In this document: one piece after another, positions 13,709 to 35,774 of the stretch
How positions within the stretch are numbered: position 1 is the stretch's first letter
Layout of the letters: every line of letters begins with the position of its first letter
Source: a bacterium
Lineage (GTDB): Bacteria; Spirochaetota; Spirochaetia; Treponematales; Rectinemataceae
Assembly (NCBI GenBank): GCA_021782015.1
Contig: JAJXVS010000002.1
Location: 1-38,608, forward strand
Reading direction: 5' to 3'
Length of the DNA: 38,608 nt
The notes under the pieces: generated by a model
What the model was told of the DNA's origin: nothing
What the model saw: the letters and a program-made list of their open reading frames with translations, nothing else
Database searches by the model: none
Made by a program: the position numbers and the translations under genes

Positions 13709-14497
13709 ATGGCGGAAAACCCCCTGGCTCGAATGAGCGAAGATGAACTCTGGGCCCTGTACAGGAAGGCGAAGGATCCCTGGATCCGCGATGCCTTTAT
13801 CAAACAGTACGCGCCCCTGGTCAAATACGTGGCCGGCAAGGTGGCCGCCAGCATGCCCAATTCCGTGGAATTCGACGACCTTGTGGGCTTCGGTGTCTTT
13901 GGCCTTCTCGACGCCATCGAGAAATTCGATCCGGAAAAGAACGTCAAGTTCAAGACCTACGCGGTGACGAGGATCAGGGGGGCGATTTTCGATGAACTTC
14001 GATCGATCGATTGGGTGCCCCGATCCGTTCGCCAGAAGACCAAGGAGATCGAGGAGGCGATAGTCGTCCTCGAAGCCTCGCTCGGCCGGCCTGCGACTGA
14101 CCAGGAAATCGCCGAGTCCCTCGGGGTCAGCGAGGAGGAACTCCTCAAGACCATGCTCAAGATTTCCGGCACCGCCGTGCTGTCCCTCAACGATGTGTGG
14201 TTTTCGGGCGACGAGGCGGACAAGATTTCCATCGGGGAGAGCATCGAATCCCCCACGAGCTTCAACCCCGATTCCTCGGTGGAGCGCGAAGAGATAAAGA
14301 GGGTGATCGTCCAATCGATTTCCGAACTCCCCGAAAAGGAAAAAAAGGTTCTCATTCTTTATTATTATGAGGATCTTACTCTCAAGGAAATCGGGCAGGT
14401 GCTCGAAGTCACGGAATCGCGCGTGAGCCAGCTCCACACCAAGGCGATCCTTAGGCTTCGCGCCAAGCTCACGAACATGCGGAAGGGGATCTTCTGA
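13709..14497 (+). CDS. fliA: Flagellar sigma factor FliA/WhiG (sigma28)
   Basis: This sigma factor directs RNA polymerase to late flagellar promoters such as those of filament genes. The 262 residues show region 2 ([39 protein letters not shown]), the sigma28-typical [10 protein letters not shown] junction, region 3 ([20 protein letters not shown]), and region 4 with an HTH ([25 protein letters not shown]). No anti-sigma FlgM gene is seen beside it. Confidence 0.95.
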
Positions 14498-19996: not shown

Positions 19997-21352
19997 ATCG
20001 GTCTCGATTCCGTATTCCTCGATCTTCTGATAGAGGGTCTTCCTCCCGATGCCGAGAATCTCCGCCGTCCTGGACTTGTTGCCGCCCTGGGCGAGGAGGG
20101 TTTCGCGGATGAGGATGGCCTCGGCCTCCTCGAGCGAGGAACCCAGGGGCACCTGGATGTCGCGCTCGCCGCCGCCGCCGCGGAGGCTCGGCGGAAGGTC
20201 GTCGAGTCCGATGATCGTCCCGCGGGCCATCACGACGGCGCTTTCGACACAATTGCGAAGTTCACGCACATTGCCGGGCCAGGAGTGGGCGTAGAGGGCC
20301 TGCCTGACCCGCGCGTCGAAGCCTTCGACACCCTTCCTGTTCTCCTCGGCGAACTCGCGCAAAAAGGCCATCGCCAGGAGCGGTATGTCGTCGCGGCGCT
20401 CGCGGAGCGGGGGAACCTCGATGTTGACGACGTTGAGCCGGTAATAGAGATCCTCGCGGAAGCGGCCCTCGGCGACCTCCTTGGCCAGGTCGCGGTTGGT
20501 GGCGGCGACGATGCGGACGTCGATCTCCACCGTCTCCTCGCCGCCCACGCGCTCGAACTTCCTTTCCTGCAGGACCCGGAGGATCTTGATCTGCACAGTT
20601 GGATTGATTTCGCCTATCTCGTCGAGAAACAGGGTTCCCGAGTCCGCGAGTTCGAAGCGGCCACGCTTGCGGGCCGCGGCCCCGGTGAAGGAGCCCTTTT
20701 CGTGGCCGAAGAGTTCGCTTTCGAGGAGGGACTCGGCGAGGGCGGCGCAGTGCACCTTGATGAGGGGACCGTCGCGGCGCGGGGAGAGATTGTGGAGGGC
20801 GTCGGCCACGAGTTCCTTGCCGACTCCCGACTCGCCCGTGACGAGGACCGATGCCCTCGTCGGCGCCACTCTCCGCACGAGGTCGAGGACCTTCCGCATG
20901 CCGCCGCTTGAGCCGAGTATCGAGGAGCCTCGCCGCTGCGCCTCGATCTCGGCCTCGAGCTCGCGATTTTTGCGGGCGAGTTCGCGCGTCTCGAGGGCTC
21001 GCCTGGCGAGGAGCGAAAGATGGTCGAGGTTGACGGGCTTGGTGAGAAAATCGAAGGCGCCGGCTCTCATGGCCTGAACCGCGTCCTCGATGGTTCCGTG
21101 CCCCGTGAGCACGATGACCGGAAGGCCAGGATAGCGGCCCGTGATCTTGCGCAGGAGTTCGCCGCCGGAGATCTTCGGCATCTTGAGATCGGTGATCACG
21201 AGGTCGACGCCGCCACCCTCGACGGCATTCAAGCCCTCGCCCCCGTCGGCGGCGGTGATGACCCGATAACCTTCGATGCCGAGGGCTTCGGCCAGCCCCT
21301 CGCGGATGTTTTTTTCGTCGTCGACGACGAGAATGGTCGAACGGACCGCCAT
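19952..21352 (-). CDS. NtrC-type sigma54 response regulator
   Basis: A 466-residue activator of sigma54 promoters. The receiver domain has VVDDEKN and the phospho-acceptor Asp in LVITDLKMPKISGGELL; the AAA+ domain has GESGVGKE, GSFTGA in place of GAFTGA, FLDEIGEI and LYYRLNVVNIEVPPLRERRDDI; a Fis-type HTH follows (GNKSRTAEILGIGRKTLYQKI). I prefer ATG at 21352 over the track TTG at 21361, because GGAGG is 10 nt from the ATG but only one base from the TTG. It lies 5 bp after the kinase stop, so the pair is cotranscribed. From memory Treponema pallidum has a similar AtoS/AtoC pair near cvpA and murG. Its targets are not evident. Confidence 0.94.
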   Translation of the reverse strand: MAVRSTILVVDDEKNIREGLAEALGIEGYRVITAADGGEGLNAVEGGGVDLVITDLKMPKISGGELLRKITGRYPGLPVIVLTGHGTIEDAVQAMRAGAFDFLTKPVNLDHLSLLARRALETRELARKNRELEAEIEAQRRGSSILGSSGGMRKVLDLVRRVAPTRASVLVTGESGVGKELVADALHNLSPRRDGPLIKVHCAALAESLLESELFGHEKGSFTGAAARKRGRFELADSGTLFLDEIGEINPTVQIKILRVLQERKFERVGGEETVEIDVRIVAATNRDLAKEVAEGRFREDLYYRLNVVNIEVPPLRERRDDIPLLAMAFLREFAEENRKGVEGFDARVRQALYAHSWPGNVRELRNCVESAVVMARGTIIGLDDLPPSLRGGGGERDIQVPLGSSLEEAEAILIRETLLAQGGNKSRTAEILGIGRKTLYQKIEEYGIETDSGRVEEANAPGAGA

Positions 21353-21357
21353 TTCGA

Positions 21358-22545
21358 TCAAGCCTCCCTGGTTTCCGGCGATGGAAGAAAGCGCTTTTCC
21401 TTCTGCGGCACCGGAATCGAAATCGTGAAGACCGAACCGCGGCCGGGCACCGAATCCACCGTAATCTCGCCGCGATGCTCGCGCACGATCTTGAAGGTGA
21501 TGGTGAGCCCCAGACCCGTCCCCGTCTCCTTCGTCGTGAAATAGGGTTCGAAGATGCGCGCGACGACTTCGGGCTCAATGCCCGTGCCGGTGTCGGAGAT
21601 GGCGATCTTCACGGCCTCGTCGGTGGCGCGAAGCGAAAAGCCCAGCCGGCCGCCCGAGCGCATCGCGGCCATGGCGTTCTTGGCGAGGTTGAGGATGGCC
21701 TGCTTCATATAGCGTCTGTCGAGGGGGACGGCCGGGGCCGAATCGGGAATGCCGAGGTCGATTTCGATGCCCGCCTGCTCGGCTTCGGGCGAAATGAATT
21801 CGGCCACCTCGCGGAGAAGGGCGGCGGGATCGGTGTCGCGCAACTCCATCTCCATGGGGCGCACGGCGAACAGGAAATCGACGACGATGCGATTGAGCCT
21901 TTCGATCTCCTCGGTGACGACACCGAGATGGCGGTCGACCTTCTCGGGGAAATCGGCGTCCATGCAGGCCCCGTCCTTCTTCATCGCGCGCTGGAGGAGC
22001 TGGATGTGGATGGAGATCGAGCCGAGGGGATTCTTGATTTCATGGGCGACGCCGGCGGCCAGGGTCGTGAGCGAGGCCAGACTCTCGGCTCGCCTGAGCT
22101 GGGCCTCGCGTCGGCGCTTGTCGGTGATGTCCTCGAGGTGGATGAGTGTGCCCACGATGCGCCGCCTCGATACGAGGGGCGTCGCGCTCGCGGCCACCAA
22201 GAGGGTCCGGTCGCCCGGCGCGTCCAGCTCGAACTCGCGATCGACCAGCCTCTCCTCGCCGCGGAGCACGTTCTTGATGAAGTCGCCGAACTCGCGGTCG
22301 CGCACGGCGAGCCAGAAGGGACGTTCGAGCGCGTCGACGGGATGGAGACCGAGCATGCGCTCGGCCGACTTGTTCCAGATGCCGGGCTGATGGTTCCTGT
22401 CCAGCACGACGATACCGTCGAGCATCGAGTCGAGGGCGGCCTCAAGCGTGCCGTTTTCCTCGGCGAGATCCCGGAGGAGGCTCCTGAGCTGGTCGGTGTT
22501 CATCCTGGCCGCCTTGGCCAGGGCCCGCTCGATGAAGGGTCTCAC
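21358..22545 (-). CDS. Cytoplasmic NtrB-like PAS sensor histidine kinase
   Basis: Partner kinase of the downstream sigma54 regulator. It has no membrane helices. A PAS domain (LDSMLDGIVVLDRNHQPGIW to LIHLEDITDKRRRE) is followed by HisKA with the phospho-acceptor H-box AAGVAHEIKNPLGSI, then HATPase with LNLAKNAMAAM, SDTGTGIEPE and TGTGLGLTI. The track start at 23703 is far too long. GTG 22545 has GGAGG 6 nt upstream and overlaps the holB stop; this gives 395 residues. ATG 22503 (MNTDQLRSLL, 381 residues) is the alternative. The signal sensed is unknown. Confidence 0.93.
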   Translation of the reverse strand: MRPFIERALAKAARMNTDQLRSLLRDLAEENGTLEAALDSMLDGIVVLDRNHQPGIWNKSAERMLGLHPVDALERPFWLAVRDREFGDFIKNVLRGEERLVDREFELDAPGDRTLLVAASATPLVSRRRIVGTLIHLEDITDKRRREAQLRRAESLASLTTLAAGVAHEIKNPLGSISIHIQLLQRAMKKDGACMDADFPEKVDRHLGVVTEEIERLNRIVVDFLFAVRPMEMELRDTDPAALLREVAEFISPEAEQAGIEIDLGIPDSAPAVPLDRRYMKQAILNLAKNAMAAMRSGGRLGFSLRATDEAVKIAISDTGTGIEPEVVARIFEPYFTTKETGTGLGLTITFKIVREHRGEITVDSVPGRGSVFTISIPVPQKEKRFLPSPETREA

Positions 22546-31973: not shown

Positions 31974-33146
31974 ATGTTCGATCTCGCGAAACTGCGCGAT
32001 GCCTTGGTCGGTTCGGGCGCCGACTACTGGCTTTTCTGCAACTTCCACCATCGCGATCCGCTCTCTGACAGGATTTTGGAACTCTCTCCCTCGACGACCA
32101 ACAGCCGTTGGTGGTTTTATTTCGTCCCCGCGACAGGCGAGCCTCTTCGCCTCGTCCACGGGGTCGAGGCCGGGGCCCTCGATTCCCTCCCCGGCAGCCT
32201 CTTGCGCTACGATTCCCGGGCCGCTCTCGAGGCCGCCCTGGCTCGCTTCAAGGGAAAGCGGGTCGGGGTCCAGTGGTCAGAGACCGTCTCGGCCATCTCC
32301 ACCCTCGATCATGGCATGGCCCGCCTCCTCGAATCGGCCGGCATTGTCCTCGTCCCGGCCGACACCCTGGTCCAGCGTCTTTCGGGCCGCATCGACGCAG
32401 CTGGAATTGCAAGCCACGAGAAGGCGGCGGCCAATCTTTACGAAATCGTGCGCCGGGTCTGGGCCCGCATCGACGATCGCTTCAGGCGTCGGGAAAGGCT
32501 AACCGAGCTTGAGGCCCAGGGCTGGATCCTTGGTCTTTTTGAGGAGATGGGCATGGAGACCGATCATCCGCCCATCGTCGGCGCGGGAGTTCATACGAAT
32601 GATCCCCACTTCGCCCCCGATCGGGCCGTCGATCGTGCCTTCGTCGAGGGTGACATCGTCCAGCTCGACCTCTGGGCCAAATTGAAGGCTCCCGCAGCTG
32701 TCTATGCCGACATTTCCTGGCTTGGCGTTTTCGGCAGCTCGGTTCCCGAAAAGGCCCTGGCTCCCTTCGACGCCCTCATCGCGGCCAGGGATGGGGCCGT
32801 ATCCTTCATCTCCGCAGCCAGCGAAGGCGGTCGCCGTTTGAGCGGCGCCGAGGTCGATGCCCATGTTCGAAACGGCCTCATCGCCGCCGGCTATGCCGGA
32901 GCCCTCCGCCATCGCACGGGGCACGGCATCGATCTCGAGGTCCACGGCTCTGGCGCCAACCTCGATTCGGTCGAATTTCCAGACCATCGCGAACTCATCG
33001 ATGGAGCCTGCTTCTCGGTCGAGCCGGGGCTGTATTTCGAGGATTTCGGCCTACGCACCGAAATCGATGTCTACATGAAGGATGGCAGACCCCTCGTGTC
33101 CGGCGGGAAGCCCCAGGCCGCCTTCCTCCTCTGTGGTCGCCCATGA
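31974..33146 (+). CDS. M24-family metallopeptidase (Xaa-Pro aminopeptidase-like)
   Basis: A pita-bread-fold enzyme, probably cleaving X-Pro peptides. Metal ligands visible: Asp in VQLDLWAKL, Asp in VYADISW (three residues further apart than the classic D-x10-D), His in RHRTGHGIDLEVHG, Glu in FSVEPGLYFEDFG, and Glu in LRTEIDVYM. The N-terminal creatinase-like domain is present. ATG 31974 (MFDLAKLRDALVGSG, 390 residues) is preceded by GGAAAGGA; ATG 31938 with GAGG and TTG 31917 are alternatives. The stop overlaps the next gene by ATGA. Confidence 0.88.
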   Translation: MFDLAKLRDALVGSGADYWLFCNFHHRDPLSDRILELSPSTTNSRWWFYFVPATGEPLRLVHGVEAGALDSLPGSLLRYDSRAALEAALARFKGKRVGVQWSETVSAISTLDHGMARLLESAGIVLVPADTLVQRLSGRIDAAGIASHEKAAANLYEIVRRVWARIDDRFRRRERLTELEAQGWILGLFEEMGMETDHPPIVGAGVHTNDPHFAPDRAVDRAFVEGDIVQLDLWAKLKAPAAVYADISWLGVFGSSVPEKALAPFDALIAARDGAVSFISAASEGGRRLSGAEVDAHVRNGLIAAGYAGALRHRTGHGIDLEVHGSGANLDSVEFPDHRELIDGACFSVEPGLYFEDFGLRTEIDVYMKDGRPLVSGGKPQAAFLLCGRP

Positions 33147-34126
33147 AGCCCGTTCCCCCTGAGCTCCTCGAGTTCATCGACGATCATTCGGTATTCTTCG
33201 TCATCGGCCACAAGGAGCCCGACGGCGATTGCGTCGGTTCGCAGCTCGCCCTCGGTTCCTGGCTCAGGCGCCGCGGCAAGAAGATCGCGCTCTGCTCCTC
33301 CGGCCCCTTTACCCGCACCGAGATCATGCCCTTCGAGCATCGGTTTCAGCCCGTCGTTCCCGAGGTTGACGGCACGGAGAGGGCCGCCGCCATCATTCTC
33401 GACTGCTCGAGCATCAAGCGCATCGGTTCGATAGCCGACAGCCTGCCGAAGGTCCCCCTCGCCTTCATCGACCATCACGCCTCGGGAGAAGCCCAGGGCG
33501 ATGTGGTCTTCATCGACGATCGAGCTCCCTCGGTGACCACCCTCGTCCTGGCCCTCATCGAGGCGGCCGGCGACAAACCCACCAAGGAAGAAGCGGAATT
33601 CCTCTTTTTCGGGCTTTCCACCGACACCGGGTACTGGCGTCACCTCGATGAGGCTTCGACCGAAACCTGGCTGGCCGGTGCCCGTCTCGTCGCCGCCGGA
33701 GCCTCTCCCAAAAGAATTTACGCGATGATGAATGGGGGCAAGTCCCTCCTTTCGCGCAAGCTGATGGGCGAGTTCCTCACGCGCGTCGAGCCCCATTTCG
33801 ACGGCAAGCTCCTCGTTTCCTTCATGACTCTTGAAGACCAGCAGCAATTCGGCCTCGCGAGCCGCGATTCGGACATGCTCTACCAGCTCCTCCTCACGGT
33901 TTCGGGCTGCGAATCGGCCATGGTCATCCGGCAAGAAAGCGAAAGCGACTGCACCGTTGGCCTCCGCTCCCGCGAGAGGGTCGATGTCGGTTCCATCGCC
34001 GCCCGCTTCGGAGGGGGTGGGCACCGACTTGCGGCTGGCCTTTCCATCCGCGGTAAGGTCGAGGAGGTGCGCGACATGCTCCTCGAGGCCTTCGAGCCAT
34101 GGTTCAAGGATGAGGGGTTCTTGTAA
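33143..34126 (+). CDS. nrnA: DHH/DHHA1 phosphoesterase, NrnA-like nanoRNase/pAp phosphatase
   Basis: Degrades very short oligonucleotides, including pGpG from c-di-GMP turnover, and/or dephosphorylates pAp. The 327 residues have motif I GHKEPDGDCVGSQLA (PDGD 26-29), motif II Asp in IILDCSS, the DHH motif in FIDHHAS (110-112), STDTGYWR, and the C-terminal DHHA1 GGGGHRLAAG. The start overlaps the M24 peptidase stop, so both scavenging hydrolases are coexpressed. Confidence 0.92.
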   Translation: MKPVPPELLEFIDDHSVFFVIGHKEPDGDCVGSQLALGSWLRRRGKKIALCSSGPFTRTEIMPFEHRFQPVVPEVDGTERAAAIILDCSSIKRIGSIADSLPKVPLAFIDHHASGEAQGDVVFIDDRAPSVTTLVLALIEAAGDKPTKEEAEFLFFGLSTDTGYWRHLDEASTETWLAGARLVAAGASPKRIYAMMNGGKSLLSRKLMGEFLTRVEPHFDGKLLVSFMTLEDQQQFGLASRDSDMLYQLLLTVSGCESAMVIRQESESDCTVGLRSRERVDVGSIAARFGGGGHRLAAGLSIRGKVEEVRDMLLEAFEPWFKDEGFL

Positions 34127-34284
34127 GCGAATGTAAGCATTCTCCGGCGCTCCCTGTCTCCGATTTCGATTTCGGTTTCTCCTCCGGAGCTATTTCACGT
34201 GGCTCAGCAGGCTTGGTTGTGCCCCCTTTTCGTCCTCACCTCGGGTGGCATGTCTTGTGCATGTCCCTCGCCGGGGGGAAAACC

Positions 34285-35322
34285 ATGAAAGAAATTGGGC
34301 TTGAATCACACTGGCGGGAATGGAAAGAGAGCGAGGAGGGGAAAGAGGCATTTTTCGCGCAGCTGGCCAAGATCCTCTACGCCGAGCCCGGACGCTTTGG
34401 CTTCGACGATGTCGATCAGGCGGCCGATACCCTGAGCTACCACCGCGAGCGCGTCATTTCGCTTCTCGATCGTTACGAGGACAGGGGTTCCAGTTTCGAG
34501 CACTATGTCGCGTCGAGTCTCCGCTTTTTCGCCAAGAGCTACAGGCGGGATACAAAACGGCTCCTGGAGCGGGACATGGCCTGTGAGCGCGCCCTGCGCT
34601 TTTCCGACGATGAGGAATGCGAATGGGAGGGCCGGCATGAAGCCATGATCGAGACGGTGGTCGATCGGGCCTCAGGGCGCGCGACAGGGCTTTCCCCCCG
34701 AAGGCACAGGAAGACCCGCGATAGCCGCCTTCTCTGTCTTCTCATGAAATGCGCCTGGGAGGCCGGGGATGTCGAAACGCGCCTTGCGGCCGAGCTGACG
34801 GGGGTTTCGGAGGCCTGGCTTTCGATGGCCCTCGCCCAGGCCCGTCGATTTCTCGAAATCGAGCGTTGCCGTTTCGAAAAGCTGACGGCCAGGCGCAATA
34901 GGGCCTGGAGCGCCCTCCGCATCAATGAGGCCAGGCTCGCCGAAGAGTCGAACGAGGTCCTGCGCGAGGGGCTCGTCCATGGCATCGCAAGGTCGAGAAA
35001 AGAGTATGAATCGGCCTTGGCCGAATTGAAGAATTTCCGACCCCTCGTGCCCAATTCCGTCATCGCCCGCCTTCTCAAACTGCCGAAGGGCTCGGTCGAT
35101 TCCGGCATCCATTACCTCAAGAAACAAGGCCGGACTTGCCCCGGCGATGGCGCACAGGCTAGTCTCGGGGCATGGAACTCCTTGTCGCCACCGGCAACGC
35201 GCATAAGCTCGTCGAACTCGGCCCCCTCTTTCCCGGACACCTCCTCAAGCGTCCCGCGGATGTCGGGCATCCGGCCTTTGATGTCGAGGAGAACGGCACA
35301 ACCTATGTCGAGAATGCCCTGA
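34285..35322 (+). CDS. Sigma-factor-like protein with two HTH segments (uncharacterised)
   Basis: ATG 34285 follows GGGGGGAA and is preferred to the track GTG at 34213; this gives 345 residues. Residues about 36-92 (DDVDQAADTL to DRYEDRGSSFEHYVASSLRF, then RR) follow the pattern of sigma70 region 2, including the R-G-S-F segment. Residues 167-190 look like one HTH. Residues 256-280 (NSVIARLLKLPKGSVDSGIH) strongly resemble region 4 of ECF sigmas. I infer a diverged sigma-like regulator; promoter recognition is not demonstrated. Residues after about 281 look non-native: they are Ser/Pro-rich and the last 50 are read out of frame through rdgB, so the original stop may have been lost. Confidence 0.7.
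   Translation: MKEIGLESHWREWKESEEGKEAFFAQLAKILYAEPGRFGFDDVDQAADTLSYHRERVISLLDRYEDRGSSFEHYVASSLRFFAKSYRRDTKRLLERDMACERALRFSDDEECEWEGRHEAMIETVVDRASGRATGLSPRRHRKTRDSRLLCLLMKCAWEAGDVETRLAAELTGVSEAWLSMALAQARRFLEIERCRFEKLTARRNRAWSALRINEARLAEESNEVLREGLVHGIARSRKEYESALAELKNFRPLVPNSVIARLLKLPKGSVDSGIHYLKKQGRTCPGDGAQASLGAWNSLSPPATRISSSNSAPSFPDTSSSVPRMSGIRPLMSRRTAQPMSRMP
35136..35165 (+). promoter_or_regulatory. Candidate leaderless promoter of rdgB
   Basis: TTGCCC (35136-35141) is followed after 18 bp by TAGTCT (35160-35165), ending 6 nt before ATG 35172. It lies within the 3' end of the sigma-like ORF, supporting the view that that ORF's tail is not under strong coding constraint. Confidence 0.4.
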
Positions 35323-35774
35323 TCAAGGCCAGGGCCCTCTACGCCCTTACCGGGCGTCCATCCCTCGCCGACGATTCGGGCCTCGCCGTCCACGCCATGG
35401 GAGGCGCTCCCGGCGTGCTTTCGGCCCGCTATGGTTCCGAGGATGGAAGGCGCAAACTCGATTCCGTCGAGCGCAACGCCCTCCTCCTCAAAAACTGCGA
35501 AGGCTTCGAGGACAGGCGTTGCGCCTTCGTCTGCGCCCTCGCCCTGATCCTCGACGAAGAGCGCATCTTCATCATCCAGGAAACCTGCCCCGGTGAACTC
35601 CTTCGCGCTCCGCGAGGGGAGGGCGGTTTCGGCTACGACCCCATCGTCTTTCTGCCCGAGCTCGACAAGAGCGTCGCCGAGCTCTCGCAAGACGAGAAGA
35701 ATCGCGTTTCGCACCGCGGAAGGGCGGGGCGAAGGATGGCCTGCCTCCTCGCGGAACTGGAAGCGGCACCCTAG
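35172..35774 (+). CDS. rdgB: Non-canonical purine NTP pyrophosphatase RdgB/Ham1
   Basis: Hydrolyses ITP, dITP and XTP to keep deaminated purines out of nucleic acids. The 200 residues show LLVATGNAHKLVEL, SLADDSGLAVHAMGGAPGVLSARY, GGFGYDPIVFLPE and the C-terminal SHRGRAGRRM. No Shine-Dalgarno precedes ATG 35172. The preceding ORF overlaps its first 151 bp in another frame, but the family motifs start within the first few residues, so this start is right. Confidence 0.95.
   Translation: MELLVATGNAHKLVELGPLFPGHLLKRPADVGHPAFDVEENGTTYVENALIKARALYALTGRPSLADDSGLAVHAMGGAPGVLSARYGSEDGRRKLDSVERNALLLKNCEGFEDRRCAFVCALALILDEERIFIIQETCPGELLRAPRGEGGFGYDPIVFLPELDKSVAELSQDEKNRVSHRGRAGRRMACLLAELEAAP

Follow-up and report, generated by a model that had tools for sequence, protein, structure and literature searches.

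The open reading frame at 34285-35322 on the forward strand of a 38,608-nt stretch of Rectinemataceae DNA (contig JAJXVS010000002.1; the window) raises two questions: whether its product is a sigma factor, and why its end lies inside the next gene. The frame is open from an ATG at 34285 to a stop at 35322. A preliminary description of the locus had pointed to a region 2-like stretch, a C-terminal helix-turn-helix (HTH) and an extra HTH in between, and all three segments were backed by profiles and a fold search. Among 59 relatives, tblastn detected a homologue in 45 and a profile in 48, at about one locus per genome. Homologue searches and alignments placed the conserved part of the protein at residues 1-281 (34285-35127, forward strand). 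Domain search and synteny identified conserved neighbours on both sides, a DHH/DHHA1 gene (nrnA-like; 33143-34126, forward strand) upstream and rdgB (35172-35774, forward strand) downstream. The rdgB gene lay immediately 3′ of the sigma-like gene in 30/30 loci examined, and the DHH gene lay 5′ of it in 27/30; the remaining three loci were truncated or gave no match. No anti-sigma gene was present as an immediate neighbour. Judged from its sequence, the reading frame is a real, conserved, essentially single-copy and uncharacterised relative of the bacterial sigma factors.

To place the segments of the protein, we aligned 20 ECF genes from the same and related genomes (alignment A3) and made profile-profile comparisons by hhalign, the E-values of which are given here for single comparisons. 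Residues 18-94 (34336-34566, forward strand) matched sigma region 2 with an E-value of about 8e-6 and a score of 43.9, while 100 column shuffles scored no higher than 17.8 and reversed columns gave 23.5. Within the middle HTH (residues ~144-191; 34714-34857, forward strand), residues 159-190 matched the region 4 HTH with an E-value of 2e-5 using the full profile and 0.001 when sliced. The C-terminal HTH (residues 254-283; 35044-35133, forward strand) fell on the same region 4 HTH with an E-value of 3e-7 when sliced. In alignment A1, residues 40-191 were collinear with a whole ECF sigma factor (E 3e-4), indicating that the spacing from region 2 to region 4 is normal. The middle HTH described earlier as extra does exist; it stands, however, at the place of ECF region 4, and it is the C-terminal HTH that has been added. 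This C-terminal HTH carries PKGSVDSG and is the most conserved segment of the protein. PKG.VD.G was perfectly conserved in alignment A2, which partly reflects selection, as the pattern was used in the collection scan; in alignment A1, which was gathered without the pattern, K268, D272 and G274 were still invariant.

Structure prediction agreed with this layout. AlphaFold2 gave an all-helical model with a mean pLDDT of 90.5 over 284 residues, in which two long helices (191-220 and 224-249) formed a coiled-coil hairpin (residues 191-249; 34855-35031, forward strand). Residues 9-109 modelled alone reached a pLDDT of 91.9, and a Foldseek search with this model returned solved sigma factors first (15/17 top matches), including WhiG (probability 0.95), ShbA, SigI1, SigI6 and region 2 of sigmaE (TM 0.62/0.66). 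The E-values of this search were weak, none being below 0.001, which counts against the sigma reading. The Foldseek search with the full-length model was uninformative and was set aside, since the hairpin dominated and coiled-coil proteins swamped the list. Profile searches of PDB sequences found nothing relevant. The architecture predicted from profiles and models is an ECF-like sigma core extended by a coiled-coil hairpin and by an additional region-4-like HTH. The earlier suggestion of an undescribed sigma or sigma-like family agrees with the profile-profile comparison, with the fold search and with matches to TIGR02937 (sigma70-ECF) in 16/28 members, all of them sub-threshold. No description of the family was found in the literature searched, of which coverage was partial, and no family model names it.

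Two further results count against a sigma factor. None of the Pfam and NCBIfam models, including TIGR02937 and Sigma70_r2/r4, exceeded its cut-off for the sigma-like protein (TIGR02937 reached at best 23 bits in the window protein, against a cut-off of 42.9). Typical ECF sigma factors, including those in alignment A3, carry QE in region 2.2 and W and N in regions 2.3-2.4; column counts showed that QE and W..N are replaced in the sigma-like proteins. Both results would be expected of a sigma mimic or polymerase-associated regulator, which keeps the sigma fold and titrates an anti-sigma factor or binds polymerase without directing initiation. A precedent is PhyR, whose sigma-like domain, joined to a receiver domain, titrates an anti-sigma factor. 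The window protein resembles the sigma-like domain of PhyR in its degenerate sigma fold, but it has no receiver domain and no PhyR_sigma-like match, and it has an extra HTH and a sigma-54 element. Moreover, the region 2.4-like helix is basic by column counts, and together with the strongly conserved C-terminal HTH it points to DNA binding, so that we regard a mimic as rather unlikely. We give a still lower probability to a sigma-54-activated DNA-binding regulator of sigma descent, which would have lost polymerase contact and would bind operators through its two HTHs. A pair of HTHs borne on a potentially dimerising coiled coil would suit such a protein, but the region-2-like domain and its fold are retained, although operator binding does not need them.

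We then asked why the frame ends inside rdgB. As had been described, the last residues are encoded within rdgB in another frame: the stop at 35322 lies 151 nt into rdgB, and 35172-35322 is an out-of-frame overlap within the run-on tail (35128-35322, forward strand). In the homologue alignment, the proteins stop a median of 12 residues past the last HTH, compared with 64 in the window protein, and an rdgB overlap of more than 10 nt was found in 7 of the 59 homologues having rdgB. A sequencing error behind the tail was rejected, as the run-on recurs in the sister species, the sole other genome of the genus compared, where it is in the same frame and overlaps rdgB by 178 nt. The tail was thus shared by one species only, and the shared letters there follow from rdgB conservation. 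Between the window and the sister species, the third position differed in a fraction of 0.42 of the rdgB codons within the overlap and 0.46 of those beyond it, whereas synonymous codon change was 36% in either part. Because rdgB codon change is alike inside and outside the overlap in these two species, the tail shows no detectable selection, and a functional overlapping tail was rejected. These comparisons support the reading of the tail (the last ~60 residues) as a drifting stop, that is, a neutral evolutionary run-on. The earlier view that the tail is non-native and the original stop lost holds in this evolutionary sense, but not as an error in the sequence. Within the explanation favoured below, the C-terminal ~60 residues are dispensable in the window species.

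The strongest feature of the locus, a conserved sigma-54 element, lies just outside the coordinates of the preliminary description and was missed there. In the upstream DNA of the homologues, we noticed a strict motif, TGGCAY-N5-NTGC, which precedes the start by a few tens of bases. The window carries this -24/-12 type element at 34246-34260 (forward strand; TGGCATGTCTTGTGC), 39 nt before the ATG, and it was the only match in the 38.6 kb, with 0.92 expected by chance. Within 120 nt upstream of the gene, the strict form was present in 47/65 loci, compared with 0.32 expected from dinucleotide shuffles, and in the controls it was found in 0/43 regions upstream of the DHH gene, 0/60 upstream of rdgB and 0/65 on the reverse strand. 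At least 8 of 9 positions of the established sigma-54 consensus, which was not fitted to the homologue data, were matched in 65/70 homologues across Spirochaetota, compared with 1.9 expected. The motif-bearing loci are related, so these counts are not independent events, and the element-to-start distances are approximate, since start codons were picked by ribosome-site score and a few by hand. In the aligned elements GG and TGC were invariant, and agreement with the known sigma-54 consensus extended to the purine that follows the -24 box and to the A/T behind GC. That the element serves rdgB, with the reading frame a mere operon leader without a regulatory role of its own, is highly improbable: the tight rdgB linkage and the 4-nt stop/start overlaps in some species would fit, but the protein shows phylum-wide conservation, and the element stays with the sigma-like gene at five loci for which no rdgB was found downstream (L061, L070, L072, L077 and L089, two of them with one mismatch), including L070 and L077, in which the next gene is clearly different and runs in the opposite direction. 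The element as an rdgB promoter was rejected on this ground. These sequence patterns suggest that the sigma-like gene is under a predicted sigma-54 promoter, by which one sigma factor would switch on another.

We identified rpoN in 59/59 relatives and in 243/247 phylum genomes, and the genome of the window encodes 11 strong enhancer-binding proteins. In this whole genome the strict motif occurred at 19 sites and in the reversed control at 18; this lack of enrichment counts against the reading, and single genomic sites are therefore not evidence, whereas conservation and position are. However, 7/19 strict sites lay within ~1.2 kb of an enhancer-binding-protein gene (G000 contigs C132, C28, C315, C92, C353, C52 and C211), compared with ~0.2 expected by simple proportion, which makes the sigma-54 motif credible in this genome. 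Most of the strict sites precede plausible starts, and one away from the enhancer-binding-protein genes lies upstream of an ammonium-transporter-like gene. The window itself contains a sigma-54 activator gene (PF00158 at 20417-20920, reverse strand; ORF 20262-21578), ~14 kb from the sigma-like gene. It also contains a further sigma70 gene (13799-14014, forward strand, with Sigma70_r2 over its cut-off; ORF 13709-14497), which is probably FliA/WhiG-like, judged by size.

Other sigma genes share the element. Two strict sites in the genome of the window precede group-2 sigma70 genes (G000:C105 and G000:C142). In families f1 and f2, TGGCAY-N5-NTGC was located just upstream of all 11 group-2 sigma70 genes read (L152, L154-L160 and L163-L165; ~283-300 residues, two subfamilies). 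The element was absent upstream of RpoD and of the 333-378-residue sigma factors of f1 and f2, and also upstream of 20/20 ECF genes, one of which has a match only 308 nt upstream. Two sigma genes of group-2 size in family f3 were without the element. On these motif positions, several sigma factors may be under simultaneous sigma-54 control.

We further examined how far the gene extends among spirochaetes. A scan of the contig collection yielded 71 loci, some from species already in the 59-relative tblastn set, and all were spirochaete records except a few titled only "bacterium". A profile scan of the phylum gave a match in 174/247 genomes; in distant families the matches covered mainly region 2 and may represent other sigma factors. 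Across these 247 genomes, the scan listed no match in f7 (a family with small genomes), in f33 or in a single f3 genome of 1.1 Mb, which we infer to be Borreliaceae, Leptospira-like and Treponema pallidum-like, respectively. Family f25, which we read as Brachyspira-like, also gave matches, but these were not counted as orthologues, having neither the rdgB/DHH neighbours nor the motif. In f3, the element was upstream in 5/6 loci read. The divergent f3 relatives are mostly syntenic; five of them (L122, L123, L125, L126 and L127) adjoin rdgB or the DHH gene and keep a sigma-54-like element upstream, whereas their C-terminal HTH has lost its PKGTVDSG signature. One weak match from an f33 genome, L219, is a 295-aa ECF sigma factor with an unrelated C-terminal extension and was assigned to a different family; its length is similar to that of LIC_10225, an unclassified Leptospira entry in PMC12655853.

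We consider that the gene probably encodes an RpoN-controlled, putative ECF-like sigma factor that would act at the second level of a sigma cascade. The computed support for this reading consists of the conserved gene, the domain homology, the conserved sigma-54 element and the lack of an adjoining anti-sigma gene. In the proposed mechanism, RpoN (sigma-54) and one of the enhancer-binding proteins of the cell would turn on the sigma-like gene in response to a presumed inducing signal. The region-2-like domain would then bind RNA polymerase, and one or both region-4-like HTHs would contact promoter DNA, the second of them held on the coiled-coil hairpin, a role that we propose for the extension. 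Polymerase would thereby be redirected to a second, putative set of genes, giving a two-tier cascade comparable to RpoN-HrpL and RpoN-RpoS. Because the element is conserved upstream of both the sigma-like gene and the group-2 sigma genes, its distribution suggests that the sigma cascade is an old and general design in the phylum. Testable predictions follow, namely RpoN dependence of the gene and a second-tier regulon.

Compared with the ECF (group 4) sigma70 factors described by TIGR02937, the protein is alike in having region 2 followed by region 4 over residues 18-191 and a C-terminal extension, and it differs as a sigma-like protein under the curated cut-off with degenerate residues in regions 2.2-2.4. 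ECF sigma factors with C-terminal extensions are known, for example ECF41, ECF42 and CorE/ECF238 (review PMC8999054); the extension here is a coiled coil with a second region-4-like HTH, and it comes with a sigma-54 element and no anti-sigma neighbour seen. Control of an ECF sigma factor by RpoN also has a precedent in Pseudomonas syringae, where HrpL is transcribed by RpoN with enhancer-binding proteins (PMC7691447). Both cases place an ECF or ECF-like sigma factor under RpoN, here as predicted from the element and in a different phylum; the HrpL regulon and the activators HrpR/HrpS are known (PMC7691447), whereas the regulon and activator proposed here are putative. Within the spirochaetes, RpoS of the Lyme agent Borrelia burgdorferi is turned on by RpoN (PMC3037356). 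The two systems are alike in having a spirochaete sigma gene under sigma-54, here by a predicted element, but RpoS is a group-2 sigma factor while the window protein is ECF-like, and no relative of it was found in f7, read as Borreliaceae. RpoN control of another sigma factor is thus known from Borrelia, and what is new is a sigma-like architecture with a sigma-54 element kept in nearly every relative sampled. Tentatively, and with less than even confidence, we propose that in much of Spirochaetia sigma-54 acts as a simultaneous master switch over two group-2 sigma factors and a new ECF-like family. Members of this family would carry an additional region-4 module, mounted on a coiled-coil arm, and could engage two sites on DNA or a pair of partners. 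If so, the RpoN-RpoS cascade of Borrelia would represent a reduced version of that network.
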